Shown in pieces: positions 4,347 through 21,179 of a stretch of 53,521 nucleotides of DNA (its first letter is position 1; each line of letters starts with the position of its first letter). Origin of the DNA: Verrucomicrobiales bacterium (GTDB lineage: Bacteria > Verrucomicrobiota > Verrucomicrobiia > Limisphaerales > UBA11320). The position numbers were made by a program, and so were the translations under genes. The stretch is from assembly GCA_016793885.1 (NCBI GenBank), contig JAEUHE010000163.1, positions 1-53,521 on the forward strand, given 5' to 3'. The notes below the pieces were generated by a model. The model had not been told where the DNA came from and did no database searches. It saw only the letters and a program-made list of their open reading frames with translations.

Positions 4347-4355
4347 GGCAATAGG

Positions 4356-4724
4356 TCATTTTTCTTTGAGCATGCGACGCAACTCCGCCAGCTCCTCCTT
4401 GCTCAACTTGCGATGCTCCACGAAGTGCGCCAGCATCGGTTTCAAAGACCCGCCGAAGATGCGGTCCAAAAACGATTCACTGGCAGCCGCCACACATTCC
4501 CGCTCGGTCACGAGCGGACGATACAAGTAGATGCGGCCTTCCTTCTCAAATCCCAAGGCACCCTTTTTGACCAGGCGATTGAGGAAGGTCTTCACCGTCT
4601 TGGGATGCCAGTCGTCGCTGGAAGAGAGCTCGTCAATGATATCCTGAGCCGTCCGAGGTGAACTGGCCCAGCAGAGTTTCATGATCTCCCATTCGGTGTC
4701 GGAAATGCGTGGAGTCGGTTTCAT
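4356..4724 (-). CDS. BlaI/MecI/CopY family transcriptional repressor
   Basis: 122 aa from MKPTPRISDTEWEIMKLCW. This is the classic winged-helix start of the BlaI/MecI family, with DTEWEIMK, a recognition region HPKTVKTFLNRLVKKGAL and a C-terminal dimerisation half. Upstream in-frame Met codons at 4784 and 4751 exist, but they lie within the operator/promoter and would add residues not expected for the family, so the ATG at 4724 was chosen. It should bind as a dimer to the two dyads just upstream (4734-4771), repressing itself and the M56 gene. Relief would come through proteolysis triggered by the M56 protein. The target regulon beyond this operon cannot be seen. Confidence 0.92.
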   Translation of the reverse strand: MKPTPRISDTEWEIMKLCWASSPRTAQDIIDELSSSDDWHPKTVKTFLNRLVKKGALGFEKEGRIYLYRPLVTERECVAAASESFLDRIFGGSLKPMLAHFVEHRKLSKEELAELRRMLKEK

Positions 4725-4733
4725 GGCGTATCG

Positions 4734-4784
4734 ATTACGGATGTAATGCATTGATTGTTTACGCCTGTAATCGATACAGCGCAA
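4734..4784 (-). promoter_or_regulatory. Promoter with two BlaI-type operator dyads
   Basis: Reading the minus strand, TTGCGC (4784-4779) and TAAACA (4761-4756), spaced 17 bp, form a plausible sigma70-like promoter. Overlapping it are two dyads of the form TTAC-N4-GTAA: ATTACGGATGTAAT at 4734-4747 and TTTACGCCTGTAAT at 4758-4771. Their centres are 24 bp apart. In addition GTATCGATTAC (4728-4738) and GTAATCGATAC (4767-4777) are a perfect 11-bp inverted repeat enclosing both. Family operators are TACA/TGTA-type dyads, so the match fits BlaI autoregulation. The promoter call itself is weaker than the operator call. Confidence 0.7.
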
Positions 4785-4816
4785 GGGAAATATTTGGAAT
4801 GAACGACCGCCGGACT

Positions 4817-5132
4817 AACCACGGATTTCTCAGATGACACAAATGAAGAACCAAGTCCCCGACCTGAATCTGCCGCCGAGAACCCGCAGGGTTCAAAGGG
4901 ATTAGCCGGGGCGTGGAGCGCAGCGGCACCCCCGGTCTGGCATCCCCCTATTCAACAGCACCCTGAAAGGGTGCCACCGGTCGGCGAAGGGACTGACGAA
5001 CAGAACAGGCTTGTTGGGTAGGGGTGACGCAGGTCTCAGAGGCCGGTGGCATCGCTGCGCGATGCTCCGTACTTTTAACAATTCCGGGGGTGCGAGCACC
5101 CCCGGCTAAATCTCTTTGAACCCTGCGGGTTC
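4817..5132. repeat. Composite palindromic repeat element
   Basis: Between blaI and dprA (about 590 bp without a gene) lies an element beginning AACCACGGATTTC (4817-4829) and enclosing a large inverted repeat. The left arm, 4880-4911, starts GAACCCGCAGGGTTC. The right arm, 5100-5132, ends GAACCCTGCGGGTTC. The arms match over about 31 bases with one mismatch and one indel. Inside are further hairpins: ACCCTGAAAGGGT near 4960-4972 and GCATCGCTGCGCGATGC at 5049-5065. Each short palindrome is made of 6-7 bp arms around a TGC/GCA centre or a GAA loop. A homologous copy lies at 36135-36280, and a core-only copy at 6661-6675. No transposase is encoded inside, so it would need a trans-acting enzyme if mobile. 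Confidence 0.8.
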
Positions 5133-5250
5133 GGGGTGTGCTGCCCAGATGAGAAACGCCGGTATCGCACGTCTTGTTTAGTCATTGGTCGGTTAAACCG
5201 TGTCGTGCCCACCGCGGTCCATGCAGAGAAGTGCCTCGGTCCAGTTCCCC

Positions 5251-5290
5251 TCCTCCCGCGTCTCTGCGCCCTTCCCGCCTCTGCGGTGCA
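5251..5290 (-). repeat. Short dispersed repeat (CACCGCAGAG type)
   Basis: On the minus strand this reads TGCACCGCAGAGGCGGGAAG followed by GGCGCAGAGACG. A related sequence starting CACCGCAGAG lies at 36091-36120, next to the second copy of the palindromic element. The pairing of this motif with the AACCACGGATTTC and GAACCCGCAGGGTTC modules at both places shows they belong to one modular repeat family, although order and orientation differ. No gene is seen in 5133-5316. Confidence 0.55.
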
Positions 5291-5316
5291 AATTCCACCG
5301 ATCCCTTTCACAACAT

Positions 5317-6432
5317 TCACTCCCCGCCCCCCGATCGCAAGAAGATCTTCCCCGGCTGCTGCGTCACGACGCGCTTCATCTCCAAGCTGAGCAGACAGAC
5401 GGACACCACCGAGACCGGTAAACCAGTGGAACGGGTGAGCTCATCGATCGAGCGCGACTCCAGCCCCAACGCCTCCATCACCTTCCGCTCGTTCTCGGAG
5501 AGCGCCACGAGCGGCAACTCGCCCGACTCGTTCGGTCCAGCCGGCCGATTCGTCGGTGGAAACAGATACTCAAACTCGCTCAAGATATCCTCCGCACCTT
5601 CGCACAGTTTGGCTCCCTTCTTGATCAATTCGTGACAGCCCTTGCTGCGCGGCGAGTCAATTCTCCCCGGCACTGCAAAGACCTGCCGCCCATACTCGGT
5701 GGCGAAGTTTGCGGTGATCAGAGCACCGCTGCTCAGGTTGGCTTCGACTACCACGGTGCCGAGGGTCATCCCCGCCACGATCCGATTGCGAATGGGAAAG
5801 GACTGCTTGTCTGCCGGACGATCAAAGGGGAACTGGGTCATTACGGCCCCTTGGGACGGAATCCGCTCGAACAGCTTCACATTCTCCGGAGGGAAGACCA
5901 AGTTGATCCCCGTGCCGAGCACCGCGATGGTTCGTCCCCCGGCGCTCAACGCACCTTGATGCGCCGCGGTATCGATCCCCCGAGCCCCACCGCTCGCCAC
6001 CGTGACACCCATATAGGCCAGCTGGTAGGCCAGCTTGCGCGCCGTCTCGATGCCGTATGGTGTGTTCTGTCGCGACCCCACCAGCGCCACCGCATTCTTG
6101 TCGCGAGGGCTGAGCGTTCCTCGGTAATAGAGCACGATCGGTGGATCATAGATTTCTCGCAGCGACGCTGGATATTCCTCTTCATCCTGGGTCACCACCT
6201 GACAGTCAAACTCGCGCAAGCGCTTCAGCTCGCGAGTCAGATCCACATGATCCTGCCAGCGGGCAATCGCCTCAGCCGTATCCGCCCCGATGCCGTGAAC
6301 TCGCAGCAGCTGATCTTCCTGTGCCGCGAGGATGGCTTGGGGTTCTCCAAAGTGGTTAAGCAGATGACGGAGCCGAACCGGCCCCACATGCTCGATCATG
6401 TTCAACGCGATCAACGCTTCTTTTCGCTGCAT
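5317..6432 (-). CDS. dprA: DNA-processing protein DprA
   Basis: 371 aa. DprA (Smf) loads RecA onto incoming single-stranded DNA during natural transformation. An N-terminal helix-hairpin-helix-like region (LLRVHGIGADTAEAIARWQ) is followed by the Rossmann-type DprA domain with VALVGSRQNTPYGIETA, the hallmark SGGARGIDTAAHQGAL, SFPIRNRIVAGM and VPGRIDSPRSKGCHELI. A C-terminal winged-helix-like segment ends the protein (SIDELTRSTGLPVSVVSVCL). The ORF is open to 6618, but the start at 6432 has a strong Shine-Dalgarno (AAGGAG about 7 bases upstream on the minus strand) and gives the canonical N-terminus MQRKEALIALNMIEHVGP. The gene stands alone, and no other competence genes are in view. Confidence 0.95.
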   Translation of the reverse strand: MQRKEALIALNMIEHVGPVRLRHLLNHFGEPQAILAAQEDQLLRVHGIGADTAEAIARWQDHVDLTRELKRLREFDCQVVTQDEEEYPASLREIYDPPIVLYYRGTLSPRDKNAVALVGSRQNTPYGIETARKLAYQLAYMGVTVASGGARGIDTAAHQGALSAGGRTIAVLGTGINLVFPPENVKLFERIPSQGAVMTQFPFDRPADKQSFPIRNRIVAGMTLGTVVVEANLSSGALITANFATEYGRQVFAVPGRIDSPRSKGCHELIKKGAKLCEGAEDILSEFEYLFPPTNRPAGPNESGELPLVALSENERKVMEALGLESRSIDELTRSTGLPVSVVSVCLLSLEMKRVVTQQPGKIFLRSGGGE

Positions 6433-6722
6433 AGCTTCTCCTTGATGAAATCTCCGCGGAAAAGACAGAGCACCGAACACACATGCGGCTGTTGCCTCCC
6501 CCTCGGAAGGAACGTGATGTATCCGAGAAGCGGGCCTGGTGCTAGAAAAAAGAGTGGAATGTCGCGCGAGGTCCGCGAGGGATTGGTTCCGAGTAATGTT
6601 GAATCCGCACCAAGACAAGTTTCCGACTCCGTCGGGTCCAGAAAAGCTGTACGGGGCCCCGAACCCGCAGGGTTCTCGACGGTGGATTCAGAAAGACATC
6701 CGAAGAAGCGAGCCCCCCCTTA
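6433..6722. repeat. Gap with one copy of the GAACCCGCAGGGTTC palindrome
   Basis: This 290-bp interval between the dprA start and the GH30 gene stop shows no credible coding sequence. At 6661-6675 it carries a perfect copy of GAACCCGCAGGGTTC (6-bp arms, GCA centre), the core of the composite element at 4817-5132, without its other modules. It may be a decayed copy or a solitary palindrome. It could also act as a weak transcription end for the GH30 gene, but no U-tract follows. Confidence 0.5.
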
Positions 6723-8171
6723 TCACGGGGTCCAAACGAAGGTGTTGATGGATTTGCCCAAGACCTGAGGTGAGAAGGCCTGAGCACCTGCCCCCACCCT
6801 GACGGTCGATTCCTGCGTCCCACAATGCACCACCACCAACACGAGCTTCCCATCCGGATTTCGAAAAGCCACGTGCTTGAGATCCGCACGCGCGGAGGTG
6901 CTCTCGATCCGAACCGCTCCGCGCTGAACAAACCTCATGAACTGACCGTAGACATAGTATTCCAACAGCCGCTCCGGTTGGAGGGTTTTGGAGTTCAGCT
7001 TTACAATTGCATGCGTTGCCGGAAACGGGCCGTTGTTTGGCTTTCCCTGATCGTCCAGCATCACCACCCAGGCGTTGTAGCTTGAGGCCCAGTTTCGCAG
7101 CCGATCGAGCAGCTGCCCAGCACCGTCGAAGCCAAAGACGGATCCTTCGGTGAAATGAATGGGCTTCCGGGGAAACTCCTGGTGAAAGGCCGTCATCCCT
7201 CCGGGCTCTCCAACATAACCATGGAAGGCCACCCCGTCGACAAACGCGGCGGCCCGGGGATCCGATAGAATCGTTCGCGGATGAGGCAAGCCGGCATCAT
7301 CCCCCTGGGCAACCAGGTTGTAGTTGTGATCGTAGCACCAGATCTTCGTCTTTAAGCCAGCCCGGCGGAAGGCGGGCCCCAAATGGTCCCGAATGAAATC
7401 ACGCTCCTGCTCGCCGGTCCAGTGACACGAGGGATAAAACCATTTGGGATCCTTCTCCTTTTGACGATCGACTCCAGGCTCGTTCTGAACCGTGACCGCA
7501 TAAATCGGAACTCCCTCAGCCTGATAGGACCTCACGAACCGGACAAAGTAGTCGGCATAGACCGAATAATACTTCGGCAGCAGTGATCCCCCGATCACAG
7601 ATCCGCTGGTCTTCATCCACCCTGGCGGGCTCCACGGCGAGGCAAAGAATAACAGCTTGGGATTCTTGCGCAGCGCCAGACGCAGCATGGGAAGGACATA
7701 GGCCTTGTCCTTGCGAATGCTGAAGCGTCGAAGGCCGGTGTCCGTCACACCGGGATCCAGATCGTTGTACGTGTACCAAGGATCGCCGGTAAAATCTGAC
7801 GATCCGATGCAGACGCGCATCAAGTTCATCCCGATTCCCGAGGCCGGATCCACCAGCTGGGTCATCAGCAGTTCCCGATCCTCCGGTAGCATTCTCCAGA
7901 GGTTCGAGCAGGTCGTAGCCTCCAAAGAGGCCCCCATCCCAAGCATGGTCTGGAAAACGATCGTGGCATCCACTTTCACGTCAGCCGAAGGAGCATCGGC
8001 TGCGGCGGCCGTCGCAAGCGCGGATAGATCTGGCTGAGGGGTGAGCTTGTGAGTGAGCGCTTCGGTAGTGGCCCACCAAGCAACACGCCCATCGGCAGCC
8101 GACGCCGTGCTCAAGATGACCAGGCCGAACATCCACACGATCGCGATTCGGGTGAGCATAGGGATCTGCAT
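6723..8171 (-). CDS. Secreted glycoside hydrolase family 30 (glucosylceramidase-like)
   Basis: 482 aa with an N-terminal signal peptide (IAIVWMFGLVILSTASA, cleavage near residue 25). The (beta/alpha)8 barrel of GH30 is visible: GMGASLEATT near 78, LMRVCIGSSDFTGDPWYTY, and FASPWSPPGWMKTSGS. The acid/base Glu is in TVQNEPGV (E231) and the nucleophile Glu in IHFTEGSVFG (E342). The C-terminal beta-sandwich (VRIESTSARADLKHVAFRNPDGKLVLVVVH) is typical of the family. It should hydrolyse beta-linked glucosides or related polymers outside the cytoplasm. Substrate choice inside GH30 cannot be told from motifs. It starts 5 bases after the RND pump stop on the same strand, so it may be co-transcribed with the pump. 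An alternative Met lies at residue 6. Confidence 0.9.
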   Translation of the reverse strand: MQIPMLTRIAIVWMFGLVILSTASAADGRVAWWATTEALTHKLTPQPDLSALATAAAADAPSADVKVDATIVFQTMLGMGASLEATTCSNLWRMLPEDRELLMTQLVDPASGIGMNLMRVCIGSSDFTGDPWYTYNDLDPGVTDTGLRRFSIRKDKAYVLPMLRLALRKNPKLLFFASPWSPPGWMKTSGSVIGGSLLPKYYSVYADYFVRFVRSYQAEGVPIYAVTVQNEPGVDRQKEKDPKWFYPSCHWTGEQERDFIRDHLGPAFRRAGLKTKIWCYDHNYNLVAQGDDAGLPHPRTILSDPRAAAFVDGVAFHGYVGEPGGMTAFHQEFPRKPIHFTEGSVFGFDGAGQLLDRLRNWASSYNAWVVMLDDQGKPNNGPFPATHAIVKLNSKTLQPERLLEYYVYGQFMRFVQRGAVRIESTSARADLKHVAFRNPDGKLVLVVVHCGTQESTVRVGAGAQAFSPQVLGKSINTFVWTP

Positions 8172-8176
8172 GTGAT

Positions 8177-11100
8177 TTAATGGCCCGCGCCCGACCAGGC
8201 GGCCCCACCTTCCGGAGCCACAGCCCCAGGCGAGCGGGGTATCGAAATGCTTCGACGGGCAGTCAGCAACGAATAGGCCACCGGCGTGACCAACAGCGTC
8301 AGCAAGAGCGAGAGGCTCTGCCCTCCGATAATCACCAGAGCGGTCGCGCGTCGCTCCTCGGCACCCGGGCCGTTGCCGATCGCCAGAGGAAGCATCCCCA
8401 CCACGAAGGTCAGGGTCGTCATCAGGATGGGGCGCAAGCGATCCCGGTTGGCCTGTACGATGGCCACCATCGGCTCCAATCCTGAGCGCCGCAGATGATT
8501 CATATGATCCACCTGGAGAATGGCGTTCTTCTTAACCACACCAAAAAGCACTAGTAGTCCCAGCGCGGAATATAAATTGAGCGTGCCTTGCGCCGCCCAG
8601 AGAGTGAAGAGGGCAAAAGGCACCGTCAGCGGCAGCGAGAGCAAGATGATCAGCGGATCCAAAAGACTCTCATACTGGGAGGCCAGAATCATATACATGA
8701 AGAGAACCGACAGGAGAAACGCCCAGAGGAATTCGCGAAAAGTGGTCTCCAGTTCCCGGCCTCGACCGACGACGCGCGTGGAATATCCCGCTGGCATCTC
8801 CAGCTTGGCCGCAGCGTCCCGGAGTGCCTCAATACGGTCGGCCAAACCATAGCCCGGAGCCACCGATCCTCGCAGGCTCACCTGCCGCTGACGATCCAAC
8901 CGATCGATGCGCGAGGCCCCCTGCCCCGCAGTGATCTCCACGAGATTGTCCAACCGCACGAGCGCACCGTTCTTGGCTGGAACATAGAGACGCGCAATGG
9001 TGGCCTCGTCTTTACGATCGGTGTCCGTCAAGCGCAACTGCACATCGTAGTCATCGTTGACCGCCTCGTCCCGGAAGCGGGAGACACGCGGGTCCCCACC
9101 CACCATCAACCGAAGCGCCGTCGCCACATCCGCCACGGCCACGCCCAGGTCCGCAGCGCGAGCCCGATCAATCGCCACTCGTGTTTCCGGCGAATCGAGC
9201 TTCAGGGTGATATCCGCATCGACAACCCCGATGTCGGGAGCCAGCTTCCGCAGCCTCTCCGCATAGTCGCCTAAGGTCTTCAAATCGGGTCCGAGCAGGG
9301 AAAAATCGATTTCGGCGCCGCTGCCTCCCAGGTTGAACGATTGCGACGGCCGGATGCTGGGACGGAGCGCCGGGTACCGGGACAGGCGCTGCCGAATCTG
9401 CTTAACCACACTCTGCTGCGTGATGGTATCCCGAAAGGCTGCCAGGGGCCTGCCCCGGGAAAGCTCATAGGCCAGGCGCCCAAAGGAGAACAGCCGTTCC
9501 GAGTGGGGCTTGAGCTTGATAAAGGCACGAACCTGGTTCAGCCCGCCCAACCCGCTGCCCACCGAGGCGAGGACCGTATCCACACCCGGGAGATCGCGAA
9601 GCTCCGACTCGACCACCCGGGTGAGTTCATCCATCGCCGCCAAGCTAAGCCCCTCCGGCGCCCGTACATTCAAATCGATCTCACCTTCGTCCGCGTTAGA
9701 CGGAACGTACTCCTGCCGGATCAGCGAATACAGCGGCACGCTGGAAAGCATGAGCACGCCGGAGACTCCCAAGACCAGGACCCGATGGCCCAACGAAAAG
9801 CGAAGGAGTCGCTCATACCCACGATCCACATAGCCATAGATCCCGGATCTGGATCGAGGACCATCTGCCCCGCCGCGGCGCGAGCGACGAAACAAACGGG
9901 CGCTCATGACCGGAGTCAGGGTGAACGATACCAGCAAACTTACCAGAACCGCCACTGCCGCCGTGATCCCGAACTGATAGAGGAACCGACCCGAGATGCT
10001 GGACATGAACGACACCGGCACAAAGATCACGACCAGACTCAACGTCGTGGCGAGCACCGCCAGACCGATCTCCTCAGTAGCCGCCCGTGCCGCCTCCCAG
10101 GAGTCCATCTTCTTTTCCTCCACGAAGCGAAAGATATTCTCCAGCACCACGATGGCATCGTCGATCACGATGCCCACCATGAGCACCAAAGCGAGCATCG
10201 TCACGCTGTTGAGGGTAAAGCCCAAGGCCCACATCATGCCGAATGTGGCGATCACGGAGGTAGGGATAGCCACCCCGGCGATTACGGTTGCCCGCCAATC
10301 CTTCATGAACATCAGAACTACCAGACAGGCCAGCAGACTACCGGCGACCAGGTGGACCTGAATCTCACGCTGCGCCTCGAGAATGTAATTCGACTGATCA
10401 CGGATGACCTCGAGCTTCACATCGGGAGGCAGCTCTCCTTCAATCGACGCAAATTTCGACTTCACCCCTGATATGACGTCGACGGTGTTGGCTCCAGATT
10501 GCCGCTTCACGTCCAGAGTCACGGCGGGAACGCCGTTCAAGCGAGCGAGTTTACGCATTTCCTTGGTGCCATCCTCGGCACGTCCGACATCTTTGATGCG
10601 AATCGGGGTTCCGTTGACCGTCGCGACCACGAGATCGTTGAACTTGGCCGGATCGCTCACCTTTCCGAGGGTGCGCAAGGTTCGCTCACGCAAGCCGGAA
10701 GTTACGTTCCCGCCGGGGGATTCGGCATTCTGGCTGACGATGGCATCGCGCACCGCCGTGATGGGAATCTGGTAGGCCGCCAGGCGATCGGCATCGACCC
10801 AGATACTGATCGCCCGCTCCACGCCTCCGACGATTTCCACCTCCCCGACCCCGGCCGATCGTTCGAGCTGAACCTTCACAACCTTGTCAGCCAGTTCAGT
10901 GAGTTCGCGGGGGGAACGATCCCCCGACAGGGCGATGCTCAGAATGGGCGTCTGATCGTTGTCCAGCTTGGAGATGATCGGCGGATCCGCCTCTCGCGGC
11001 AGATCCCGCACTACGGTCGCGACGCGCTCACGCACGTCCTGCGCCGCCGCCTCGATGTTGCGATTGAGCTCGAACGTGACGATGATGAAGGACGATCCCA

Positions 11101-11359
11101 TGCCTGAGATCGACCTCAGCTCCTTGATGCCCTCGATCGTGTTGACGGCCTCCTCGATGCGCTGAGAGACCTGGGCCTCCACCTCGGCGGGAGAGGCGCC
11201 CGGCAGCGTCGTGCGGACGTTGACGGTGGGAAGATCGACCGACGGTGATCGATCCACGCCCAAATGCCAATAGCCCACCGATCCCACCACCACCAGCGAA
11301 AGGATCAGCATCGACGCGAAGACGGGACGACGCAGGCAAATCTCAGCGAGCCGTTGCAT
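8177..11359 (-). CDS. RND efflux pump inner-membrane subunit (AcrB/MexB type, HAE1)
   Basis: 1060 aa, the usual length for a proton-driven RND drug exporter. It begins with the typical cytoplasmic edge and TM1 (CLRRPVFASMLILSLVVVG). The porter-domain motif GIKELRSISGMGSSFIIVTF follows. TM4 has GIVIDDAIVVLENI, with the paired aspartates D400 and D401 that carry protons. The two-fold internal repeat is evident, since the second half has its own TM block (LSVLFMYMILASQYESLLDPLIILLSLPLT). Its start overlaps the stop of the upstream membrane-fusion protein by 17 bases, showing coupling. No TolC-like outer membrane factor is nearby, so a distant channel must be used. Substrate is unknown. Confidence 0.94.
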   Translation of the reverse strand: MQRLAEICLRRPVFASMLILSLVVVGSVGYWHLGVDRSPSVDLPTVNVRTTLPGASPAEVEAQVSQRIEEAVNTIEGIKELRSISGMGSSFIIVTFELNRNIEAAAQDVRERVATVVRDLPREADPPIISKLDNDQTPILSIALSGDRSPRELTELADKVVKVQLERSAGVGEVEIVGGVERAISIWVDADRLAAYQIPITAVRDAIVSQNAESPGGNVTSGLRERTLRTLGKVSDPAKFNDLVVATVNGTPIRIKDVGRAEDGTKEMRKLARLNGVPAVTLDVKRQSGANTVDVISGVKSKFASIEGELPPDVKLEVIRDQSNYILEAQREIQVHLVAGSLLACLVVLMFMKDWRATVIAGVAIPTSVIATFGMMWALGFTLNSVTMLALVLMVGIVIDDAIVVLENIFRFVEEKKMDSWEAARAATEEIGLAVLATTLSLVVIFVPVSFMSSISGRFLYQFGITAAVAVLVSLLVSFTLTPVMSARLFRRSRRGGADGPRSRSGIYGYVDRGYERLLRFSLGHRVLVLGVSGVLMLSSVPLYSLIRQEYVPSNADEGEIDLNVRAPEGLSLAAMDELTRVVESELRDLPGVDTVLASVGSGLGGLNQVRAFIKLKPHSERLFSFGRLAYELSRGRPLAAFRDTITQQSVVKQIRQRLSRYPALRPSIRPSQSFNLGGSGAEIDFSLLGPDLKTLGDYAERLRKLAPDIGVVDADITLKLDSPETRVAIDRARAADLGVAVADVATALRLMVGGDPRVSRFRDEAVNDDYDVQLRLTDTDRKDEATIARLYVPAKNGALVRLDNLVEITAGQGASRIDRLDRQRQVSLRGSVAPGYGLADRIEALRDAAAKLEMPAGYSTRVVGRGRELETTFREFLWAFLLSVLFMYMILASQYESLLDPLIILLSLPLTVPFALFTLWAAQGTLNLYSALGLLVLFGVVKKNAILQVDHMNHLRRSGLEPMVAIVQANRDRLRPILMTTLTFVVGMLPLAIGNGPGAEERRATALVIIGGQSLSLLLTLLVTPVAYSLLTARRSISIPRSPGAVAPEGGAAWSGAGH

Positions 11360-12602
11360 TGAGCTCCTCGTGAACCGGCTGTTGGGACCGCAGCTTGCCC
11401 GGATTCAGAATCACACGGTCACCCGCCGCCAGACCGTCGACGATCTCCACCCAAGGCTCCGCGCGTCGCCCGGTGGTCACACCTCGCTCCACCGCCTTCC
11501 CTTCCTTGAGCAGGAACACCTTATCCAAGCCGACAAAGCTGGTGATAGCCGACTCTGGAACGCACAGGCCGGGGTCATCCTTTCGGATCACAATCTCCGC
11601 TTCGGCGAACAGCCCGGGCCGCAACGCTGGGTCCGTCGCAACATCGGCCTCCACCAACAACATCCGATTGGAGTCGGTTAGAATCGGGCTCACCCGAGCG
11701 ATCTCGGTCTGGTACACCGCTCGTGCACGTCCCACTCGAACTCGAACGATCTGTCCTGGTCGGATCTCGGTGGATTCCAATTCGGGGACCTCCAAACGCA
11801 GCCGCAGCGGGTTCACCGCCGCGATCACGAGGAGCGGGGCGCCCCCCTGAACAAACTCGCCCGGACTGGCCAGCCGTTCCTGGACCACACCATCGAACGG
11901 GGCGCGGGTCGTGGAGTCGGAAAGCTGCTTGCGGGCGATATTCAGCTCGGCCCGCCGCTGCACAACCAAGGCTTGGCGAGCGCGCACGGACTCGACCGCT
12001 TCCTGGTAGCGACTGACCGCCACCGCATGGGCAGCCTCCGTGGCATCGAGATCGGTTTGGGGGGCCAGCTTCTCCAGAACCAGCTGACGCACCCGGGCAC
12101 GATTCTTAAAGGCCTCATCGAGCAAGGCTTTGGCTTCTCTCACTGCGCCCGACGCTTCGACCTCCACCGCGTCATCCTCACCGCTCAAAGGGAGCCCGAT
12201 GGCAGCCCGAGCCTGGGACAAAACGGCCTCGGCCTGCTTGACCCGAAGCTCATAATCGGTCAGATCGACCTGCGCCAGCTTGTCTCCTTTGCGAACCACA
12301 CTTCCGATGTCCACGGCGATGAACTCCAATCGTCCGGCCACCTTCACGCTCAGCGTGCTCTTCTCGCGTGCGTAAAATGAGCCCGAAACTTGGACGCTCC
12401 GTTCCATGGGACGCAACTCGGCCACTGCCGTCCGGACCGGTTTTGATGGCAACGGGGCTTCTGCGCTACTGGCCTTCGAGGGACCCGACCGCGGGCCGCA
12501 GGAACACAGCGACAGCAGGAGCAAGGCGCCCAGGAAGCAGCCGATCTTGGGGCCTCGCCACCCGGTGAGCCCAGCGCTAAAGCGGCAGAGTGTTCGATAC
12601 AT
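11343..12602 (-). CDS. RND efflux periplasmic adaptor (membrane fusion lipoprotein)
   Basis: 419 aa from MYRTLCRFSAGLTGWR. A signal segment FLGALLLLSLCSCG ends in a lipobox-like LCSC, so the protein is probably lipid-anchored. The body is an HlyD/AcrA-type adaptor: a beta-barrel/lipoyl hybrid (LEFIAVDIGSVVRKGDKLAQVD), a helical hairpin of about 100 residues rich in Ala and Glu (about 120-215), the return lipoyl half (STTRAPFDGVVQERLASPGEFV), and a C-terminal membrane-proximal domain (GLDKVFLLKEGKAVERGVTTGRRA). It links the RND pump to an outer-membrane channel. The ORF extends to 12638, but the ATG at 12602 gives a compact signal peptide. No strong ribosome binding site was seen. Confidence 0.92.
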   Translation of the reverse strand: MYRTLCRFSAGLTGWRGPKIGCFLGALLLLSLCSCGPRSGPSKASSAEAPLPSKPVRTAVAELRPMERSVQVSGSFYAREKSTLSVKVAGRLEFIAVDIGSVVRKGDKLAQVDLTDYELRVKQAEAVLSQARAAIGLPLSGEDDAVEVEASGAVREAKALLDEAFKNRARVRQLVLEKLAPQTDLDATEAAHAVAVSRYQEAVESVRARQALVVQRRAELNIARKQLSDSTTRAPFDGVVQERLASPGEFVQGGAPLLVIAAVNPLRLRLEVPELESTEIRPGQIVRVRVGRARAVYQTEIARVSPILTDSNRMLLVEADVATDPALRPGLFAEAEIVIRKDDPGLCVPESAITSFVGLDKVFLLKEGKAVERGVTTGRRAEPWVEIVDGLAAGDRVILNPGKLRSQQPVHEELNATAR

Positions 12603-12771
12603 GCTCAAGAGAATAGTGCCCAATCCGGGAAGGAACACCTACCCGCGTAGGGAATAAAGACATACTTGCGAAAGAAATAGACGGTGGCAAGATCAGGCCC
12701 CACCAATCTACTTGAACAATTCCTTCCCTTCCCAAGTCCATTTTTCCTAGCATCATCGCCTTAAGACTCAA

Positions 12772-15700
12772 ATGCACATGCGAACTCTGTTAATTGCCGC
12801 CACCTGGGTGCTCGCCAACCTGATGGCCACAGCGCAACCCGCCGTCCGACTGGAACTCAAGTCGGGAGACCACGTCAGCCTCGTGGGCAACACGTTGGCC
12901 GACCGTTTTCAGCACAGCGGGTGGCTGGAGACCCTCATCGTCGCCAAGCACCCCGCTCACAACCTCATCTTTCGAAACCTTGCGGTCGCCGGGGATGAAA
13001 TCACCCTCCGTCACCGCTCCGAAAACTTCGGAACACCAGAGGATTGGCTGAAAAAGACCGAAACCGACGTCATCTTCGCCTTTTTCGGGTTCAACGAGTC
13101 ATTCAAGGGTTACGAGGGTCTGGAAAAGTACAAGGCCGACTTGGATAAATTCCTGAAGGAAACCGCCACTAAGAACTATTCAGGCAAAGGGGCCCCGCGA
13201 ATTGTGCTCTTCTCCCCCATCGCCGCCGAGAGGCATCAGGACCCCAACTTCCCGGATCCGGCTCGCATCAACGACAGCCTAAAGGATTACACCGCCGCGA
13301 TGGCGGATGTCGCGCGCGCCAATGGCGTCCAGTTCGTGAACCTGTTCAATCCTTCCCAGCAGCTATTCGCCGCGGCTGCTCGCCAGGGTCAGTCCCTCAC
13401 CGTCAACGGGCTGCACCTGAAAGAAACGGGGGATAAACAGCTCGCTCCGATCATCTTCAGCGAACTCTTTGGCGAACCGGCACCCGCCGGAAACTTCGAG
13501 AAACTCCGCGAGGCGATCAACGAAAAGAACGCGCAGTGGCATGCGCGGTACCGCACCATCGACGGCTACAATGTCTACGGTGGCCGATCCCAGCTGAGCT
13601 TCGAAAGCGGCAAAGGAGGCCCGAAGATCACGAACTACAAAGTCATGCAGGAAGAGATGAGCCAGCGCGATGTGCTTACCGCCAACCGCGACAAGCGGGT
13701 CTGGGCCGTCGCCAAGGGAGGCGACCTGACTGTGGAGGACTCCAATCTGCCCCCCACCACCAAAGTGCTCTCCAACAAGCCGGGTCCCAATCCGGATGGC
13801 ACCCACGTTTTCTTGAACGGTGAGGAAGCCATTTCCAAGATGACCCTGCACTCCGGCACCAAGATCAACCTCTTCGCAGCGGAGGATAAGTTCCCGGAGT
13901 TGATCAATCCGGTGCAGATGGCTTGGGACACCAAGGGACGCCTCTGGGTCTCCGTCTGGCCGAACTATCCCGGCCGCACTCCTGACAGCAAGGTTGGCGA
14001 CAGCCTCCTCATTTTCGAAGATGTCGATGGCGATGGCAAAGCCGACAAGTGCACGCACTTCCTCGACGATCTTAACGCCGCGACTGGGTTCCAATTCTAC
14101 AAGGACGGCGTGTTGGTGGTGCAAGCGCCCGACCTGTGGTTCGTCCGCGACACAGACGGCGACGGCAAAGGCGACTGGAAGGAACGAGTGCTGATGGGTC
14201 TGGACTCGGCTGATTCACATCATACCGCCAACGCGGTTTGCCTCGATCCCGGTGGCGCGATCTACCTCAGCGATGGCGTTTTCCATCGCACGCAGGTAGA
14301 AACCGAACGAGGTCCTTTGCGGAACAACGACGGAGCCATCTATCGGTTCGAGCCGCGAACCGGCAAGTTTGAAACCTACGTTGCCTATGGTTTCGCCAAT
14401 CCCCATGGCCGGGTGTTCGATGCCTGGGGCAATGACATCATCACCGACGCGACCGGCAATGCCAACTACTTCGGCGCGGCCTTCAGCGGGCATATTGATT
14501 ACCCCAACAAACACGGCGGGATGAGGGAGTTCTGGAACCGCCCTTCCCGCCCGTGCCCGGCCACCGGAATCCTGACCAGCCGGCACTTTCCGGAGGAGTT
14601 CATGGGGAATTTCCTGAATATCAATGTCATCTCGTTCCAAGGAATCTATCGAGTCAAAGTCACCGACGAAGGCTCGGGGATTAAAGGTGAGACCTTGGAA
14701 CATCTGATCTCCTCGAGTGACCCGAATTTCCGTCCGATCGCCATCAGCACAGGGCCGGATGGAGCCATCTATTTCGCGGACTGGCACAATCCGATCATCG
14801 GGCACATGCAGCATCATTTGCGCGATCCGAACCGCGATCGCGGCCATGGACGACTCTACCGCATCACCTACGAAGGTCGCCCGCTTTTGAAGCCGGCCAA
14901 GATCGACGGGGAGCCCATCGAGAAGCTGTTGGCCCTGCTCAAGGAACCGGAAAACCAGACCCGCGAGCTGGCCAAGATCGAACTGGGCGAACGCAACACG
15001 GCCCAAGTGGTGGCCGCCACCAAGAAATGGGCCGCGAGCCTCGACAAGCAGGACCCGAACTACGAGCACCAGATGATGGAAGCTCTTTGGGTTCACCAAT
15101 GGCACAATGTTGTTGATGCTGATTTCCTGAAGCGCATGCTGTCCTCGCCTGAACCCAGAGCCCGGGCAGCGGCGGCCCGCGTTCTTTGCTACTGGCGAGA
15201 TCGGGTTCCCGACGCGCTGGCACTCTTCAAAACGCTAGCCAATGATGCCCATCCGCGCGTTCGCTTAGAGGCAGTTCGAGCGGCCAGCTTCTATCGGAGT
15301 GCCGAGGCGGCCGAAGTCGCGCTCACCATTCTAAAGCAGCCGACGGACTACTACCTGGACTACACGCTCAAGGAGACGCTCCGGCAACTCGAGCCGTATT
15401 GGCGGAAAGCCATCGCCGCCGGACAACCCCTCGCCGCCGACAATCCGGCGGGCATCAATCACCTCATCAACAGCGTCAACACCGCTGAACTGCTGAAGCT
15501 CCCCAAGACCCCGGGAGTTTTGGAAGCCATATTGATCCGTCCCGGCATTCAGGACTCGGATCGCAACGTGGCCCTCGACTCGTTGGCCAAGGCGCGCAAG
15601 AACAACCGCGTCAACCAACTCCTGACCCTGGTCGACTCCAAGGGATCCACTGAAGCCGCCGCCGCCAGCCTCGCCCGGCTGTTCCCATTCCAGCTCGCGG

Positions 15701-17181
15701 AGGAACTGGCGCCGGCGCGGGACCGAATCGCCAAGCTGGCCACCAGCGCGGCATCCCCCGACCTCCGGTCCGCTGCCTGGAGCGCCTTGGCTCTGGCCGA
15801 CAACAGCTTCGACCGCGTGTGGACGGAAGCCTCCAAGTCCCCGGCGGTCCTGTCAGACCTGCTCAACAGCATTCCAGCCCTCACGGATTCCGACTTTCGG
15901 GCCCGAGCCTACAACCGAGTTAGGCCTCTCTTGGGAGACCTGCCAGCCCAGTTCCAGGCGGAGGCAGCCAACGCCAAGGCGAACGCGCGATATGTTAGGA
16001 TCGAGCTTCCCCGCCGAGGCACGCTCACTCTCGCGGAGGTGCAGGTGTTTAGCGACGGCAAGAACATCGCCCCCGAGGGCAAGGCCAAACAGTCGTCCAC
16101 CTCGAATGGCGGCGACGCGGGCAAAGCCATCGATGGGCGCACCGACGGATCCTTCTCCAGCGGAACGCAAACCCACAGTCAGGAGAACGAAAACAATCCC
16201 TGGTGGGAGCTGGACCTTGGTAGCGGCCGCCCAGTGGATTCCGTCGTAGTCTGGAACCGGACTGAGGGCCAACTCGGGCAGCGTTTGGAAGGCTTCACCT
16301 TGACGCTCTTCGATGCGGACCATCGGGAAATCTTCAAGCAAGCCGGGAACCCTGCCCCCGCCGAGAGCGCCAAAATCAAGGCGGGCCAGGACACCATCGG
16401 CAGCCTGCGTCGCGCCGCCATCCGGGCCAGCGTCAGCATGAACCACGAGCCCGAAGCGGTCTTTACCGCGCTCGCCGACCTGATCGATCGACGCGAGCAG
16501 GTCACAGCCGCGGCCCAAGGCATGCGAGTATTGCCTCGCGCCGCCTGGCCCAAGGCTCGTGCGGGTGAAGCCGCCGTCTCCCTGGTGGCGTGGGCTAAGA
16601 GCATTCCGTCAGGAAGCCGCACCGCCCAGGACTTCATCGAGACCGTCCAGTTCGCCAGCGATCTCGGCGGCCTGCTTCCTCCCGACAAAGCTACTGAGCT
16701 TCGCCGCGAGCTGAAGACCCTTCGAGTACCGGTTTTCGTCATTCGCACCGTTCGCGAGCAAATGCGCTACGATACGCCTCGTTTGGTGGTGGAGCCTGGA
16801 AAGGCGATCGAGATCATTTTCGAGAATGCCGACTTCATGCCGCACAACCTGGTGATCGTACGTCCGGGTACTCGCGAGAAAATCGGAAACGCCGCCGCCC
16901 TCATGAAACCGGATGAGCTCGATGGACGCGGCCGCGCCTACACTCCCAACACCCCAGACATCCTGGCCGCCACCAAAATGCTGGATGCGGGCCAGCGCGT
17001 CACCCTCAGCCTCACGGTGCCCAATGAGGAAGGTGAATTGGAATATGTGTGCACCTTCCCGGGGCATTTCCAGCTGATGTGGGGTCGGCTGGTCGTGACT
17101 CGTGATGTGGACGCCTACCTGCAAGCGCATCCGGAGGCTCCCCTGCCGACCGCCGGGGCGCATGCCGACCACGACAAGTAA
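12772..17181 (+). CDS. PVC-type SGNH / beta-propeller dehydrogenase-like / HEAT / F5-8C / cupredoxin protein
   Basis: 1469 aa, exported (RTLLIAATWVLANLMATAQP; Met 1 or Met 3 may start). Domains in order: an SGNH-like fold (about 23-235) whose first block reads VGNTLADR instead of GDSx and whose last block is NGLHL, so the catalytic Ser is missing; a propeller of the PVC membrane-bound dehydrogenase type (about 350-690) with Ca-loop motifs DVDGDGKADKC (about 418) and DTDGDGKGD (about 461) and NPHGRVFDAWGN; HEAT-like helices (about 740-1070); an F5/8 type C/discoidin domain (about 1073-1193, NNPWWELDLGSGRPVDSVVVW); and a C-terminal blue-copper domain (about 1317-1450). The copper ligands appear complete: H1358 in MPHNLV, then C1427, H1432 and M1436 in VCTFPGHFQLM, the azurin-like C-x4-H-x3-M spacing. 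Many relatives end in a CxxCH cytochrome c. None is present here. Likely a periplasmic oxidation or electron-transfer protein of unknown substrate. Confidence 0.9.
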   Translation: MHMRTLLIAATWVLANLMATAQPAVRLELKSGDHVSLVGNTLADRFQHSGWLETLIVAKHPAHNLIFRNLAVAGDEITLRHRSENFGTPEDWLKKTETDVIFAFFGFNESFKGYEGLEKYKADLDKFLKETATKNYSGKGAPRIVLFSPIAAERHQDPNFPDPARINDSLKDYTAAMADVARANGVQFVNLFNPSQQLFAAAARQGQSLTVNGLHLKETGDKQLAPIIFSELFGEPAPAGNFEKLREAINEKNAQWHARYRTIDGYNVYGGRSQLSFESGKGGPKITNYKVMQEEMSQRDVLTANRDKRVWAVAKGGDLTVEDSNLPPTTKVLSNKPGPNPDGTHVFLNGEEAISKMTLHSGTKINLFAAEDKFPELINPVQMAWDTKGRLWVSVWPNYPGRTPDSKVGDSLLIFEDVDGDGKADKCTHFLDDLNAATGFQFYKDGVLVVQAPDLWFVRDTDGDGKGDWKERVLMGLDSADSHHTANAVCLDPGGAIYLSDGVFHRTQVETERGPLRNNDGAIYRFEPRTGKFETYVAYGFANPHGRVFDAWGNDIITDATGNANYFGAAFSGHIDYPNKHGGMREFWNRPSRPCPATGILTSRHFPEEFMGNFLNINVISFQGIYRVKVTDEGSGIKGETLEHLISSSDPNFRPIAISTGPDGAIYFADWHNPIIGHMQHHLRDPNRDRGHGRLYRITYEGRPLLKPAKIDGEPIEKLLALLKEPENQTRELAKIELGERNTAQVVAATKKWAASLDKQDPNYEHQMMEALWVHQWHNVVDADFLKRMLSSPEPRARAAAARVLCYWRDRVPDALALFKTLANDAHPRVRLEAVRAASFYRSAEAAEVALTILKQPTDYYLDYTLKETLRQLEPYWRKAIAAGQPLAADNPAGINHLINSVNTAELLKLPKTPGVLEAILIRPGIQDSDRNVALDSLAKARKNNRVNQLLTLVDSKGSTEAAAASLARLFPFQLAEELAPARDRIAKLATSAASPDLRSAAWSALALADNSFDRVWTEASKSPAVLSDLLNSIPALTDSDFRARAYNRVRPLLGDLPAQFQAEAANAKANARYVRIELPRRGTLTLAEVQVFSDGKNIAPEGKAKQSSTSNGGDAGKAIDGRTDGSFSSGTQTHSQENENNPWWELDLGSGRPVDSVVVWNRTEGQLGQRLEGFTLTLFDADHREIFKQAGNPAPAESAKIKAGQDTIGSLRRAAIRASVSMNHEPEAVFTALADLIDRREQVTAAAQGMRVLPRAAWPKARAGEAAVSLVAWAKSIPSGSRTAQDFIETVQFASDLGGLLPPDKATELRRELKTLRVPVFVIRTVREQMRYDTPRLVVEPGKAIEIIFENADFMPHNLVIVRPGTREKIGNAAALMKPDELDGRGRAYTPNTPDILAATKMLDAGQRVTLSLTVPNEEGELEYVCTFPGHFQLMWGRLVVTRDVDAYLQAHPEAPLPTAGAHADHDK

Positions 17182-17223: not shown

Positions 17224-17703
17224 GTGAAAAAAGGCGTATTGATCAAGAAGGTCATCGCACGGCTCTCTGAAGAGCTGGAGCTCTATGCTTCAGCAGCTCG
17301 TGCGTCGCATGCAGAAGCGACGCACGAGCAAAGTCGTGCTGATAACAAATATGATACTCGGGGACTCGAGGCCGCCTATCTAGCCCGAGGGCAGTCGCGT
17401 CAGGTCGCGGAGGTTGAGTTGGCCATCGAACAGTTCCAGAAGATGGCGCTTCGAGATTTCTCGCCCGAAGATCCCATCGATTTGGGAGCCTATGTGGAGG
17501 TCCTTTCCAAACAAGGCACCAGCCACTATTTCATCGGCCCGCGCGCTGGGGGTACGGAAGTGGAGCATGATAAGAAGGAAGTTTTGGTGATAACCCCGCA
17601 GTCTCCGCTAGGCCAGCAGTTGGTCGGGAAAAAGCAGGGCGAAAAGCTCCAGATCGAGATAGCCGGAACGCGATCCGAGTATCGAGTGACCAAAGTGGCT
17701 TAG
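17224..17703 (+). CDS. GreA/GreB family elongation factor-like protein
   Basis: 159 aa from a GTG start (VKKGVLIKKVIARL). The N-terminal half is a predicted coiled coil with ADNKYDTRGLEAAYLARGQ. The C-terminal half is the FKBP-like GreA/B domain ending VLVITPQSPLGQQLVGKKQG and IEIAGTRSEYRVTKV. Length equals GreA (about 158 aa), but the coiled-coil tip lacks the usual DLSEN acidic signature, having THEQSRADNKYDTR instead. It may therefore modulate RNA polymerase differently from true cleavage factors. Members of this branch usually accompany, rather than replace, canonical GreA. It lies 43 bp after the PVC protein on the same strand and is followed by a repeat. Confidence 0.82.
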   Translation: MKKGVLIKKVIARLSEELELYASAARASHAEATHEQSRADNKYDTRGLEAAYLARGQSRQVAEVELAIEQFQKMALRDFSPEDPIDLGAYVEVLSKQGTSHYFIGPRAGGTEVEHDKKEVLVITPQSPLGQQLVGKKQGEKLQIEIAGTRSEYRVTKVA

Positions 17704-17748: not shown

Positions 17749-17873
17749 GTGATGGGCCCTGGGTCCACGAACAGAACGAGGTTGCGTCGTGGAGAGCCGA
17801 GGTGGCAACGATCGTTCGTCGTGATTGCCACACCCGGGTGGCATGGATAGGCTCCCCTTCAATCGCCACACCG

Positions 17874-18083
17874 ATGAAGACGATCCCATCAAGGCTCTCC
17901 CTGCCACTCAACCGCCGACAGTTCGTTATCTCCGGCTCCACACTCGCCGCGGGCGCGCTCACGGGATGCCAGACGACCGGGGTTCGTCAGAGGCATGGCA
18001 TCATCGACACTCACACGCATTTTTACGATCTTCAACCGGAACGCCAAAGCCATTTACCGTTATGTCAGCTAAGATCTCCTTGA
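17874..18083 (+). pseudogene. Truncated amidohydrolase, N-terminal fragment
   Basis: The 69-aa ORF begins MKTIPSRLSLPLNRRQFVIS, continues with a twin-arginine/lipoprotein-like segment GSTLAAGALTGC, and then HGIIDTHTHFYD. The last stretch is the first metal-binding motif (HxH) of the amidohydrolase superfamily (amidohydrolase 2 type), which is normally followed by some 250-300 more residues. Here it runs into 17 unrelated residues and stops, and its end overlaps the start of the FAD oxidoreductase gene (18062). I read this as a remnant left when the rest of the gene was deleted. It may still supply expression signals for the downstream gene. Confidence 0.7.
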
Positions 18084-19828
18084 GAACCCCGCGAGCCTCC
18101 ACCCTCGGCCGGAGAAACTTCATACGATCACTCGGAACGGCTGGCCTAGGTGTGGGCCTCGGCGTTCTGGCGAGCCCCGTCTCCGCAAGGTCACTGTTTG
18201 AAGCGGCAGCGCGGGAGCGCGGCCGTCGGGAGATGACAGCAGATATTCTGATCGTGGGGGGAGGCCTGGGAGGATGCGCGGCAGCGCTAGCAGCGCTTGA
18301 AGCGGGAAAACACGTAATCCTGACCGAGGAAACCGATTGGATCGGCGGCCAACTCACCCAGCAGGGAGTGCCTCCCGATGAAAACCGCTGGATTGAAACC
18401 CATGGGTGCACACGCACCTACCGTTCGCTGCGGAATGGAATCCGCGATTACTACCGCCGTCATTTCCCACTCCTCCCCGAGGTAGCATCTCGCGCTCACC
18501 TCAATCCGGGCGACGGAAACGTGTCCCGATTGTGCCACGAGCCCAAGGTCGCGCTGGCTGTTTTGGAATCTCTGCTGGCGCCCTACCAAGCCAGCCGTCA
18601 ACTCGTGATTCTGCTCGAACATCATGCCATCGCCGCGGAGACGCAGGGCGACTCCGTGCTAGGTGTTACCCTCCGAAGCCAGCGCTCGGGCGGCACGGTG
18701 TCGGTTCGGGCGCCCTACTTCATCGATGCCACGGAGCTGGGAGACTTGCTCCCGTTGGCTCGTGTGGAATTCGTTACCGGAGCGGAGGCGCGCCGCGCGC
18801 ACGGTGAACTCCATGCTCCCGAGATTGCTCAACCAGCCAACCAGCAGGCGTTCACGGTCTGCTTCGCCGTCGACCATGTCAGCGGCGCAGATCACCGGAT
18901 CGAAAAACCTCGCGAATACCCGTTTTGGCGGAGTTATCTACCCCAGCTCACCCCGCCCTGGCCCGGCCCGTTGCTCAGTCTCACCTATTCCCATCCGGTG
19001 ACACTCCAGCCCCGCACGGTAGGGTTCAGTCCGATCTCCGAAACCACTGGTGATCTGCTAAACCTCTGGCGGTACCGCCGAATTGCCAGGCAGTCTCAGT
19101 TCAAGCCCGGGGCCTATCCCGGAGATATCTCCCTGATCAACTGGCCGCAGAATGACTATTGGCTGGGCAACCTGGTGGGGGTTAGCGACGGAGAAGCAAC
19201 CCGGCATGTGCGCCGGGCCAAGCAACTCAGCCTGTCGTTGCTTTATTGGCTCCAAACAGAAGTTCCACGGGTTGATGGAGGAACCGGTTGGCCAGGATTG
19301 CGGCTCCGAGGCGATCTGATGGGCACCGAGGATGGTTTGGCTAAATACCCCTACATTCGGGAGTCTCGAAGGATTCGCGCCGTCTACACCGTGGCCGAAA
19401 CGGATTGCGGCCGTCAGGCGCGAGCGCAGTTGACCGGCGCATCCGAAACCGCGGTGAAGGCCAAAGACTATCACGACACGGTGGGCATCGGACATTACAA
19501 CATCGACCTGCATCCCAGCACCCAAGGGGTCAACTACATCGATGTACCATCGCTGCCCTTCCAAATTCCTCTCGGTGCGCTGCTCCCGATCCGCGTTAAG
19601 AACCTGCTCCCTGCCTGCAAAAATCTGGGTGCCACCCACATCACGAACGGCTGCTATCGGCTGCATCCGGTGGAGTGGAACATTGGAGAGGCGGCTGGGG
19701 CACTGGCGGCTTTTGCCTTGGATCGCCGAGAGCCCGTTCACGCCGTCCGCGAGAAGCCTGCGCTGCTGCGCGATTTTCAAGCACGCCTGGAGCAACGCGG
19801 CGTCGAACTGCGCTGGCCCGCAACGTAG
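18062..19828 (+). CDS. Tat-exported FAD-dependent oxidoreductase
   Basis: 588 aa from MSAKISLRTPRAST. A twin-arginine signal GRRNFIRSLGTAGLG is followed by a hydrophobic stretch to about residue 45, indicating folded export with cofactor. The dinucleotide-binding motif DILIVGGGLGGCAAALAAL (about 60-80) and TEETDWIGGQLTQQGVP are those of the FAD_oxidored family, widespread in Planctomycetes and Verrucomicrobia. The C-terminus has the second FAD contact region (LLPACKNLGATHITNGCYRL and EWNIGEAAGALAAF). Physiological substrate is unknown. The ORF is open to 17825, but that portion is out of frame with the amidohydrolase remnant and is not protein-like. The next gene, a PmoA-like protein, begins 118 bp downstream, so a shared catabolic role is possible. 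Confidence 0.9.
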   Translation: MSAKISLRTPRASTLGRRNFIRSLGTAGLGVGLGVLASPVSARSLFEAAARERGRREMTADILIVGGGLGGCAAALAALEAGKHVILTEETDWIGGQLTQQGVPPDENRWIETHGCTRTYRSLRNGIRDYYRRHFPLLPEVASRAHLNPGDGNVSRLCHEPKVALAVLESLLAPYQASRQLVILLEHHAIAAETQGDSVLGVTLRSQRSGGTVSVRAPYFIDATELGDLLPLARVEFVTGAEARRAHGELHAPEIAQPANQQAFTVCFAVDHVSGADHRIEKPREYPFWRSYLPQLTPPWPGPLLSLTYSHPVTLQPRTVGFSPISETTGDLLNLWRYRRIARQSQFKPGAYPGDISLINWPQNDYWLGNLVGVSDGEATRHVRRAKQLSLSLLYWLQTEVPRVDGGTGWPGLRLRGDLMGTEDGLAKYPYIRESRRIRAVYTVAETDCGRQARAQLTGASETAVKAKDYHDTVGIGHYNIDLHPSTQGVNYIDVPSLPFQIPLGALLPIRVKNLLPACKNLGATHITNGCYRLHPVEWNIGEAAGALAAFALDRREPVHAVREKPALLRDFQARLEQRGVELRWPAT

Positions 19829-19946
19829 TGTGGGGAGGACGGCTGAGGCGGCCCACGCTACAATTGTGGCGTCGTCCGTGTCGGACGATTCCCCAGCCCA
19901 TTTTTCGCCTCGCTCCGAAGCCGTCATTTTGTCATACCAGCCCATC

Positions 19947-21179
19947 ATGCGCACGCGACTCACTCTACCCAGTCTGCTTAGCTCCCTACTCCTGACGCTC
20001 TCAGCAACCGCGAAGGAAGCGGTTCCCACCTGGGTGATCGAGGTCCAAGCGGGTGCGCAGGCCCGCTCGCAAACGGTCGCAGTGGTCGCCTGCCCTCCCG
20101 AACTGGCCGGAGCGAGTTGGATTAAGCCCGAGAACGGCAAACGAATCCCCTTTCAGATCGATCGCCAGGGACGGGGATGGTTCATCGTAGACAACCTACC
20201 CGCGGGGAGCAGTCGCCGGTATGTGGTGGATCTCAAACGGAAGGCTTCAGAAAAACCACGGGGCTGCACCCTGGAATTCATCGGGAATGCGCTGCTTTAC
20301 CGCCTCGATGGCCAGCCCGCCTTCCAGTTTCAGCAAGGACTCAGCCCCCTGCCCCGACCGGACATCAAGCCCATCTTTCGGCGCGGCGGATACCTGCATC
20401 CCGTGTTCACTCCCTCAGGCACCCTGGTCACCGATGATTACCCCACGAACCACGTGCATCACCACGGGATCTGGTCGGCGTGGACCAAAACGATTTTTGA
20501 AGGACGCCAGCCTGATTTCTGGAACATGGGAGAGGGCAAAGGAACCGTGATCCCACTCAGCCTGGACGGATCCTGGGATGGTCCGGTGCAGGCTGGGTTT
20601 CGCGCGCGTCACCGCCACCAAGATCTCACCATAACCCCGCGACGAACCGCCTTGGAGGAAAACTGGGAAGGCCGCCTCTACGCCTTGGGAGGCAAGAAAG
20701 CAGGCCACTTCATCTTCGATCTGATCCAAGAGCAAACCTGCGCAACCGGAAGCCCACTGGAGCTGCCCGAGTATCATTACGGCGGCATGGGACTGCGAGG
20801 CTCGGAGCAATGGCAAGGCGCAACCAGGGCCTTTTTTCTGACTTCGAACGGTGAGACCAACCGCGTCAAAGGCCACGCTACCAAAGCCAACTGGTGCGCG
20901 ATGAGCGGATGGGTCGATGGCCGTCTGGCCGGAATCGCAGTGCTCTGCCATCCACAGAATTTTCGCGCGCCTCAGCCCATGCGCATCCATCCTGATGAGC
21001 CCTTCTTTTGCTACGCACCTCCACAGGAGGGGGCTTTCCGAATCAGTCCCGAGCAGCCCTATGCGGCTCGCTACCGTTTCGTGGTGTTCGATGGAGCCCC
21101 CGATGCAGCAAAATTAGAAGCCCTCTGGCAGGACTATGTCCATCCCGTGGAAGCTACCTTGCGGCAAGCGAAGCCCTGA
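19947..21179 (+). CDS. PmoA-like (DUF6807) secreted protein
   Basis: 410 aa from MRTRLTLPSLLSSLLLTLSA, a clear signal peptide. The body matches the family usually annotated PmoA (a misleading name; it is not methane monooxygenase). Motifs visible are GGYLHPVFTPSGTLVTDDYP followed by NHVHHHGIWSAWT, and later GGMGLRGSEQW and WCAMSGWVDGRLAGIAVLCH. The HxHHHG cluster is highly conserved and looks like a metal or carbohydrate site, but the biochemical role of the family is not established. Family members commonly sit beside oxidoreductases and amidohydrolases in sugar-degrading loci, as here. The frame is open upstream to 19542 inside the FAD gene, and the Met at 19947 is chosen because the signal peptide follows. 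Confidence 0.85.
   Translation: MRTRLTLPSLLSSLLLTLSATAKEAVPTWVIEVQAGAQARSQTVAVVACPPELAGASWIKPENGKRIPFQIDRQGRGWFIVDNLPAGSSRRYVVDLKRKASEKPRGCTLEFIGNALLYRLDGQPAFQFQQGLSPLPRPDIKPIFRRGGYLHPVFTPSGTLVTDDYPTNHVHHHGIWSAWTKTIFEGRQPDFWNMGEGKGTVIPLSLDGSWDGPVQAGFRARHRHQDLTITPRRTALEENWEGRLYALGGKKAGHFIFDLIQEQTCATGSPLELPEYHYGGMGLRGSEQWQGATRAFFLTSNGETNRVKGHATKANWCAMSGWVDGRLAGIAVLCHPQNFRAPQPMRIHPDEPFFCYAPPQEGAFRISPEQPYAARYRFVVFDGAPDAAKLEALWQDYVHPVEATLRQAKP

Follow-up and report, generated by a model that had tools for sequence, protein, structure and literature searches.

A copper-ended member of the PVC heme propeller proteins in a Verrucomicrobiales bacterium, with a predicted blue copper domain in the place of cytochrome c

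The window analysed here is the whole 53,521-nucleotide stretch of contig JAEUHE010000163.1 (assembly GCA_016793885.1) from a Verrucomicrobiales bacterium. On its forward strand an open reading frame with an ATG start (12772-17181; a second in-frame ATG, at 12778, could also serve) encodes a protein of 1469 amino acids, which is a copper-ended variant within the already known PVC heme propeller family. The product is probably an exported multidomain protein, and its signal-like N-terminus makes a periplasmic location plausible. The domains follow each other in the order SGNH, propeller, HEAT, F5/8C, second helical block and cupredoxin:

12772..12837, + strand, residues ~1-22: likely signal peptide, MHMRTLLIAATWVLANLMATAQP (signal-like N-terminus, read directly from the sequence)
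12847..13470, + strand, residues 26-233: degenerate SGNH-fold domain (PF13472, conservation, fold matches)
13822..14880, + strand, residues 351-703: DUF7133/TIGR02604 beta-propeller (Pfam/NCBIfam, AlphaFold2 model, VIA-align, hhalign)
14917..15933, + strand, residues 716-1054: HEAT repeats (PF13646 and helices in the models)
15985..16380, + strand, residues 1072-1203: F5/8 type C (discoidin) domain (PF22633/PF00754 and model strands)
16393..16716, + strand, residues 1208-1315: second helical block, between F5/8C and cupredoxin (model secondary structure)
16723..17100, + strand, residues 1318-1443: cupredoxin of auracyanin/azurin type (PF00127, sequence profile, VIA-align)
16843..16845, + strand: predicted copper ligand His1358 (conserved in 43/43)
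17050..17079, + strand: predicted copper-ligand loop C1427-TFPG-H1432-FQL-M1436, C-x4-H-x3-M (C, H and M in 43/43)

The SGNH-like, propeller, HEAT, F5/8C and cupredoxin parts that a first-pass annotation, made from the letters alone, had recognized were all confirmed by Pfam and NCBIfam; the second helical block had been missed. Curated Pfam cut-offs were exceeded by DUF7133 (residues 351-565, 222.2 against 27 bits), HEAT_2 (785-862) and F5_F8_type_C_2 (1118-1183), and Lipase_GDSL_2 (49-220, 37.6 against 32.9 bits) and Copper-bind (1328-1442, 35.1 against 21.2 bits) also scored over theirs, as did TIGR02604 of NCBIfam (202.3 bits, cut-off 122.2). Judged from segment lengths, the relatives at loci L044-L047, L051 and L052 have an F5/8C region some 150 residues shorter. 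At another place in the window, a single open frame (50714-52087, + strand) contains two further F5/8C-like stretches, which share 38-43% identity with the F5/8C domain of the copper protein. A scan for promoters and terminators gave no signal clearly exceeding that of shuffled sequences.

The C-terminal domain is predicted to be a type-1 copper electron carrier. In an AlphaFold2 model of residues 760-1469, with a mean predicted local distance difference test score (pLDDT) of 88, residues 1318-1443 superposed on auracyanin 6kol with a Z of 18.9 and a root-mean-square deviation of 1.3 A over 117 residues (VIA-align), and on azurins with a Z of 16-17; the C-terminal cupredoxin fold on which the first-pass annotation had staked its claim was therefore recovered. 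The isolated domain also matches auracyanin A and blue copper proteins of the PDB by sequence, auracyanin A being reached at E 3e-13 in a profile search, and PF00127 was matched by all 20 cupredoxin domains tested, that of the window included. The ligands H1358, C1427, H1432 and M1436 lie at the residues named earlier and are invariant in the 43 aligned Verrucomicrobiota sequences, the window protein among them. Both the fold and the His/Cys/His/Met ligands of a type-1 (blue) cupredoxin are thus found in the model and the sequence, and related cupredoxins are electron carriers. Azurin proper was rejected as a family name (TIGR02695 equivalog, 25.7 bits against a cut-off of 105.1).

The window protein and all of its copper-type relatives are free of CxxCH, so that the heme signature of the PVC proteins is lacking from them. 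The cupredoxin occupies the same C-terminal place, after the HEAT repeats, as cytochrome c in L002, L003 and others, and the earlier proposal that a copper domain stands in for cytochrome c is upheld by the fold, by the ligand conservation and by the genome's own heme-ended paralogues. Using the cupredoxin profile, a single azurin/auracyanin-type copy, the window protein itself, was found in this genome, which holds 36 TIGR02603 heme domains. The comparison of copper and heme versions that had been recommended gave one copper end, 24 C-terminal CxxCH and three proteins with neither among the 28 propeller proteins examined (the copy at C108, which is truncated in locus L010, was assigned to the heme type on the TIGR02603 domain count). 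Elsewhere in the class, other families have as many as 5-7 azurin-type cupredoxins next to 15-32 heme domains, and some of these cupredoxins are fused to DUF7133 propellers in different architectures.

An unrooted propeller tree with 53 rows places the heme-ended L002 within a group of copper-ended proteins. A single clade of copper-ended propellers, and with it their single origin, was rejected (approximately unbiased test, p-AU 2e-56; 0.004 without L109). As the copper-ended propellers are not one clade, the terminal module, heme or blue copper, has by these sequences been exchanged more than once in the family, and the swaps carry no readable direction since the tree is unrooted. In the cupredoxin tree the propeller-fused domains fall in one part, together with three stand-alone domains and one that is otherwise fused. 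The gene at L109:3466-7185 (- strand), with the order DUF6807, DUF7133 and cupredoxin, is an independent copper-ended propeller, and in the tree it sits far from the group of the window protein.

Relatives were found at 54 loci in a scan of 84,980 species genomes, nearly all of them in Verrucomicrobiota and mostly full length. Nearly all of those whose C-terminus is on the contig have the cupredoxin motif; at L041 the contig end cuts inside the cupredoxin, yet the domain scores 181 bits. An orthologue is present in four of the five genomes of the genus, the fifth being 85% complete. No description of a copper-ended fusion turned up in the part of the literature that was searched.

The alignment indicates that the N-terminal domain is a degenerate SGNH fold across the whole family. 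The position of the SGNH serine (41) holds T in the window protein and A, G or T in 28, 9 and 4 of the 43 aligned sequences, respectively; the block III Asn (Asn108) is invariant, and the block V His is present here as His215 but kept in just 8 of the 43. The pair of block I Ser nucleophile and block V His that marks an active SGNH enzyme was accordingly not found, and the model of the domain matches acetylxylan esterase-type SGNH enzymes in fold. The serine loss that had been pointed out earlier is thus real (A, G or T in 41 of 43), although it deserves no special weight: the heme paralogues L002, L003 and L004 carry G, E and T at this position, and a tie between the loss and the copper swap was rejected because they lack the serine too. 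That the domain binds glycans is a guess.

The AlphaFold2 model of the propeller (pLDDT 89) is nearest to pyrroloquinoline quinone (PQQ) sugar dehydrogenases (VIA-align, 3a9g with Z 22.5 and 7cgz with 21.9). Moreover, hhalign paired the propeller with five proteins of the phylum from PF07995, the GSDH family, at a probability of 96% and E 6e-9. In this pairing the catalytic His corresponds to His484, RNPQG to ANPHG (542-546) and the first Arg of GRIRD to Arg654. The PQQ-site residues are numbered His144, Arg228, Asn229, Arg406 and Arg408 in soluble glucose dehydrogenase (sGDH); by alignment His484, Asn543 and Arg654 are kept and Ala542 and Ile656 replace two of the Arg, leaving the set incomplete. 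Within the 20 copper-ended propellers His483, Asn543 and Pro544 occur in all, His484 in 19 and Arg654 in 15. The window protein gave no match to PF07995 among matches up to E 0.1; the heme paralogue L131 scores above the cut-off of that family. Searching PDB sequences with a propeller profile returned chance repeats only.

Links to sugars come from fusion partners, which occur across both copper and heme relatives. In L003 a 3-keto-disaccharide hydrolase domain (PF06439) is fused with SGNH, DUF7133 and cytochrome c, and in L103 PF06439 stands beside a cupredoxin. ThuA is fused in L104, L128 and L137 and DUF6807 in L109 and L129; lectin-like Laminin_G domains are found in L115 and L124. Proteins of PF06439 are proposed or known periplasmic 3-ketoglycoside hydrolases, linked to the hydrolysis of 3-ketolactose and 3-ketotrehalose (PMC9007349). 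Another family of the class has a fusion of 3-keto-disaccharide hydrolase, azurin-type cupredoxin and PA14 (L103:2689-5427, L105 and L106; Pfam shown for L103), in which no propeller was found.

We lean towards reading the window protein as a periplasmic sugar dehydrogenase, possibly 3-keto-forming, that passes electrons on via type-1 copper. The propeller would bind and oxidise a carbohydrate or glycoside, and the catalytically dead SGNH domain and the F5/8C domain may help to bind or position a polymer or glycan. Electrons leaving the propeller site would reach the C-terminal copper centre, which would hand them on to a periplasmic or terminal respiratory chain, the copper doing the job of cytochrome c in the sister proteins. 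In a concrete version, a 3-keto-glycoside would be formed and then cleaved by 3-keto-disaccharide hydrolases. For the substrate, left entirely unnamed before, the likeliest class is now carbohydrate.

Several results weigh against this dehydrogenase reading. In fold and profile the PQQ sugar dehydrogenases are barely ahead of SMP30 proteins and lactonases, the SMP30/DFPase hydrolases reaching a Z of ~21, within ~1.5 Z of the top. Position 542, the equivalent of sGDH R228, is Arg in none of the 20 copper types and in 8 of 27 heme types, no PqqE scored above the cut-off in the five genomes of the genus, and a canonical PQQ site in the propeller therefore appears unlikely; PqqC gave no match either, in a search whose control likewise failed to register. 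The sole activity found for a TIGR02604 protein in the literature searched is lactose hydrolysis by Lac161_ORF7 (TIGR02604-HEAT-cytochrome c), reported as a beta-galactosidase with a Km of 1.8 mM, whose possible operon also has a PF14100 (DUF6807) gene (PMC5342196). Two relatives, L050 (7836-10622, + strand, 68% identity) and L058 from Planctomycetota (4086-6875, + strand, 48% identity), are otherwise similar but end after the first HEAT repeats, both with neither copper nor heme and thus with no redox domain, and a split or frameshifted cupredoxin was looked for downstream of both and not found. Comparison of the neighbourhoods across loci gave no conserved neighbour naming a substrate, save for synteny between close relatives. 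The oxidation put forward by the first-pass annotation is plausible: it keeps the indirect support of the nearest fold and profile and loses some to the missing PQQ arginine, to the lack of PQQ-synthesis genes above cut-off and to the lactose report.

These same results can be read in other ways. The propeller might be a hydrolase, either a glycosidase or a lactonase, comparable to SMP30 or Lac161_ORF7, with the copper or heme domain serving separately, for example in docking to a redox partner; the beta-galactosidase report, the closeness of the SMP30/gluconolactonase/DFPase folds and the absent PQQ Arg would all suit it. However, no follow-up of that report was among the papers found, a complete redox centre is present in nearly all full-length copper types although hydrolysis needs none, and the profile similarity extends to the PQQ dehydrogenase family; we regard a hydrolase as unlikely. 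That propeller, HEAT and F5/8C merely anchor a relay or adaptor for electrons from another enzyme seems to us more doubtful again. An exchangeable redox module is what a generic relay would have, HEAT and F5/8C are interaction domains and no propeller cofactor was identified, but the propeller centre, with its His pair, Asn543 and Pro544, is among the most conserved parts, suggesting an active site, and no partner gene is conserved nearby. Least probable of these is a cupredoxin that binds, stores or senses copper without redox function: the two relatives without it indicate that it is dispensable in some lineages, whereas the azurin/auracyanin-type ligand set and loop spacing are fully kept, the domain takes the place of a c-type heme in sister proteins and, as said, its relatives carry electrons.

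Around the copper gene, a GreA/GreB C-terminal-like protein is encoded directly downstream (17224-17703, + strand); in the genus relative L160 (= L043) the orthologue is followed by a copy with 67% identity, and none was found in other loci. A flavin adenine dinucleotide (FAD) oxidoreductase (PF12831) and then a DUF6807 protein (PF14100) follow at 17825-21179 (+ strand), ~0.6-4 kb downstream, and homologues of these two were not found beside the copper gene in other loci. The DUF6807 frame as called starts at 19542; because this overlaps the FAD gene, the real start probably lies at about 19,950. An RND-type efflux transporter and membrane-fusion (HlyD) pair (8177-12638, - strand) is oriented divergently to the copper gene and is adjoined on the same strand by a GH30 glycosidase (6723-8171). 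Most gene clusters in the neighbourhood comparison are antisense shadow frames.

The PVC heme-propeller proteins are strongly expanded and unexplained in the phylum, with at least 24 heme-ended copies in the genome of the window. That a copper-ended version occurs naturally beside them offers an experimental handle, as the copper colour would directly report reduction by the substrate, and comparing copper/heme sister pairs can tell the part that determines the chemistry from the part that just carries the electrons off. More tentatively, the DUF7133 propellers in general may be the periplasmic 3-keto-glycoside-making dehydrogenases of Verrucomicrobiota, with a cofactor site unlike that of canonical PQQ enzymes and an exchangeable heme or blue-copper outlet swapped several times; this is possible, and we would not call it probable. 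If the 3-keto link is true, it would put a name to an enzyme that breaks sugars down oxidatively in a phylum abundant in fresh water and soil.

Compared with known systems, the window protein resembles each in part. With the SGNH/GDSL hydrolases it shares the fold, the PF13472 score and the block III Asn, whereas they have the nucleophilic Ser that it lacks and its family seldom keeps the block V His. The PQQ soluble aldose/glucose dehydrogenases (PF07995) have the propeller fold in common with it and, at the PQQ site, a His, an Asn and a single Arg, but they possess R228 and R408, for which the copper protein has no equivalents, and no PQQ-synthesis gene scored above cut-off. Auracyanin and azurin agree in fold, in the His-Cys-His-Met ligands and in the C-x4-H-x3-M loop; they are small free proteins, and here the cupredoxin is the C-terminal domain of a long polypeptide. 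For the Planctomycete-specific cytochrome c (PSCyt) proteins of freshwater Verrucomicrobia, some with carbohydrate-binding modules, a carbohydrate-linked electron transfer has been proposed, although they belong to other domain families and carry heme, with no copper domain mentioned (PMC5615132). Closest are the PVC heme-binding CxxCH proteins (TIGR02604 and TIGR02603; DUF7133-HEAT-cytochrome c, as in Lac161_ORF7), which have the propeller, the HEAT repeats and a C-terminal electron-transfer module, and of which the paralogue L002 shares the SGNH domain too, at ~39% identity over residues 20-898. They end in a CxxCH cytochrome, whereas the window protein continues with F5/8C and a second helical block and ends in a cupredoxin.

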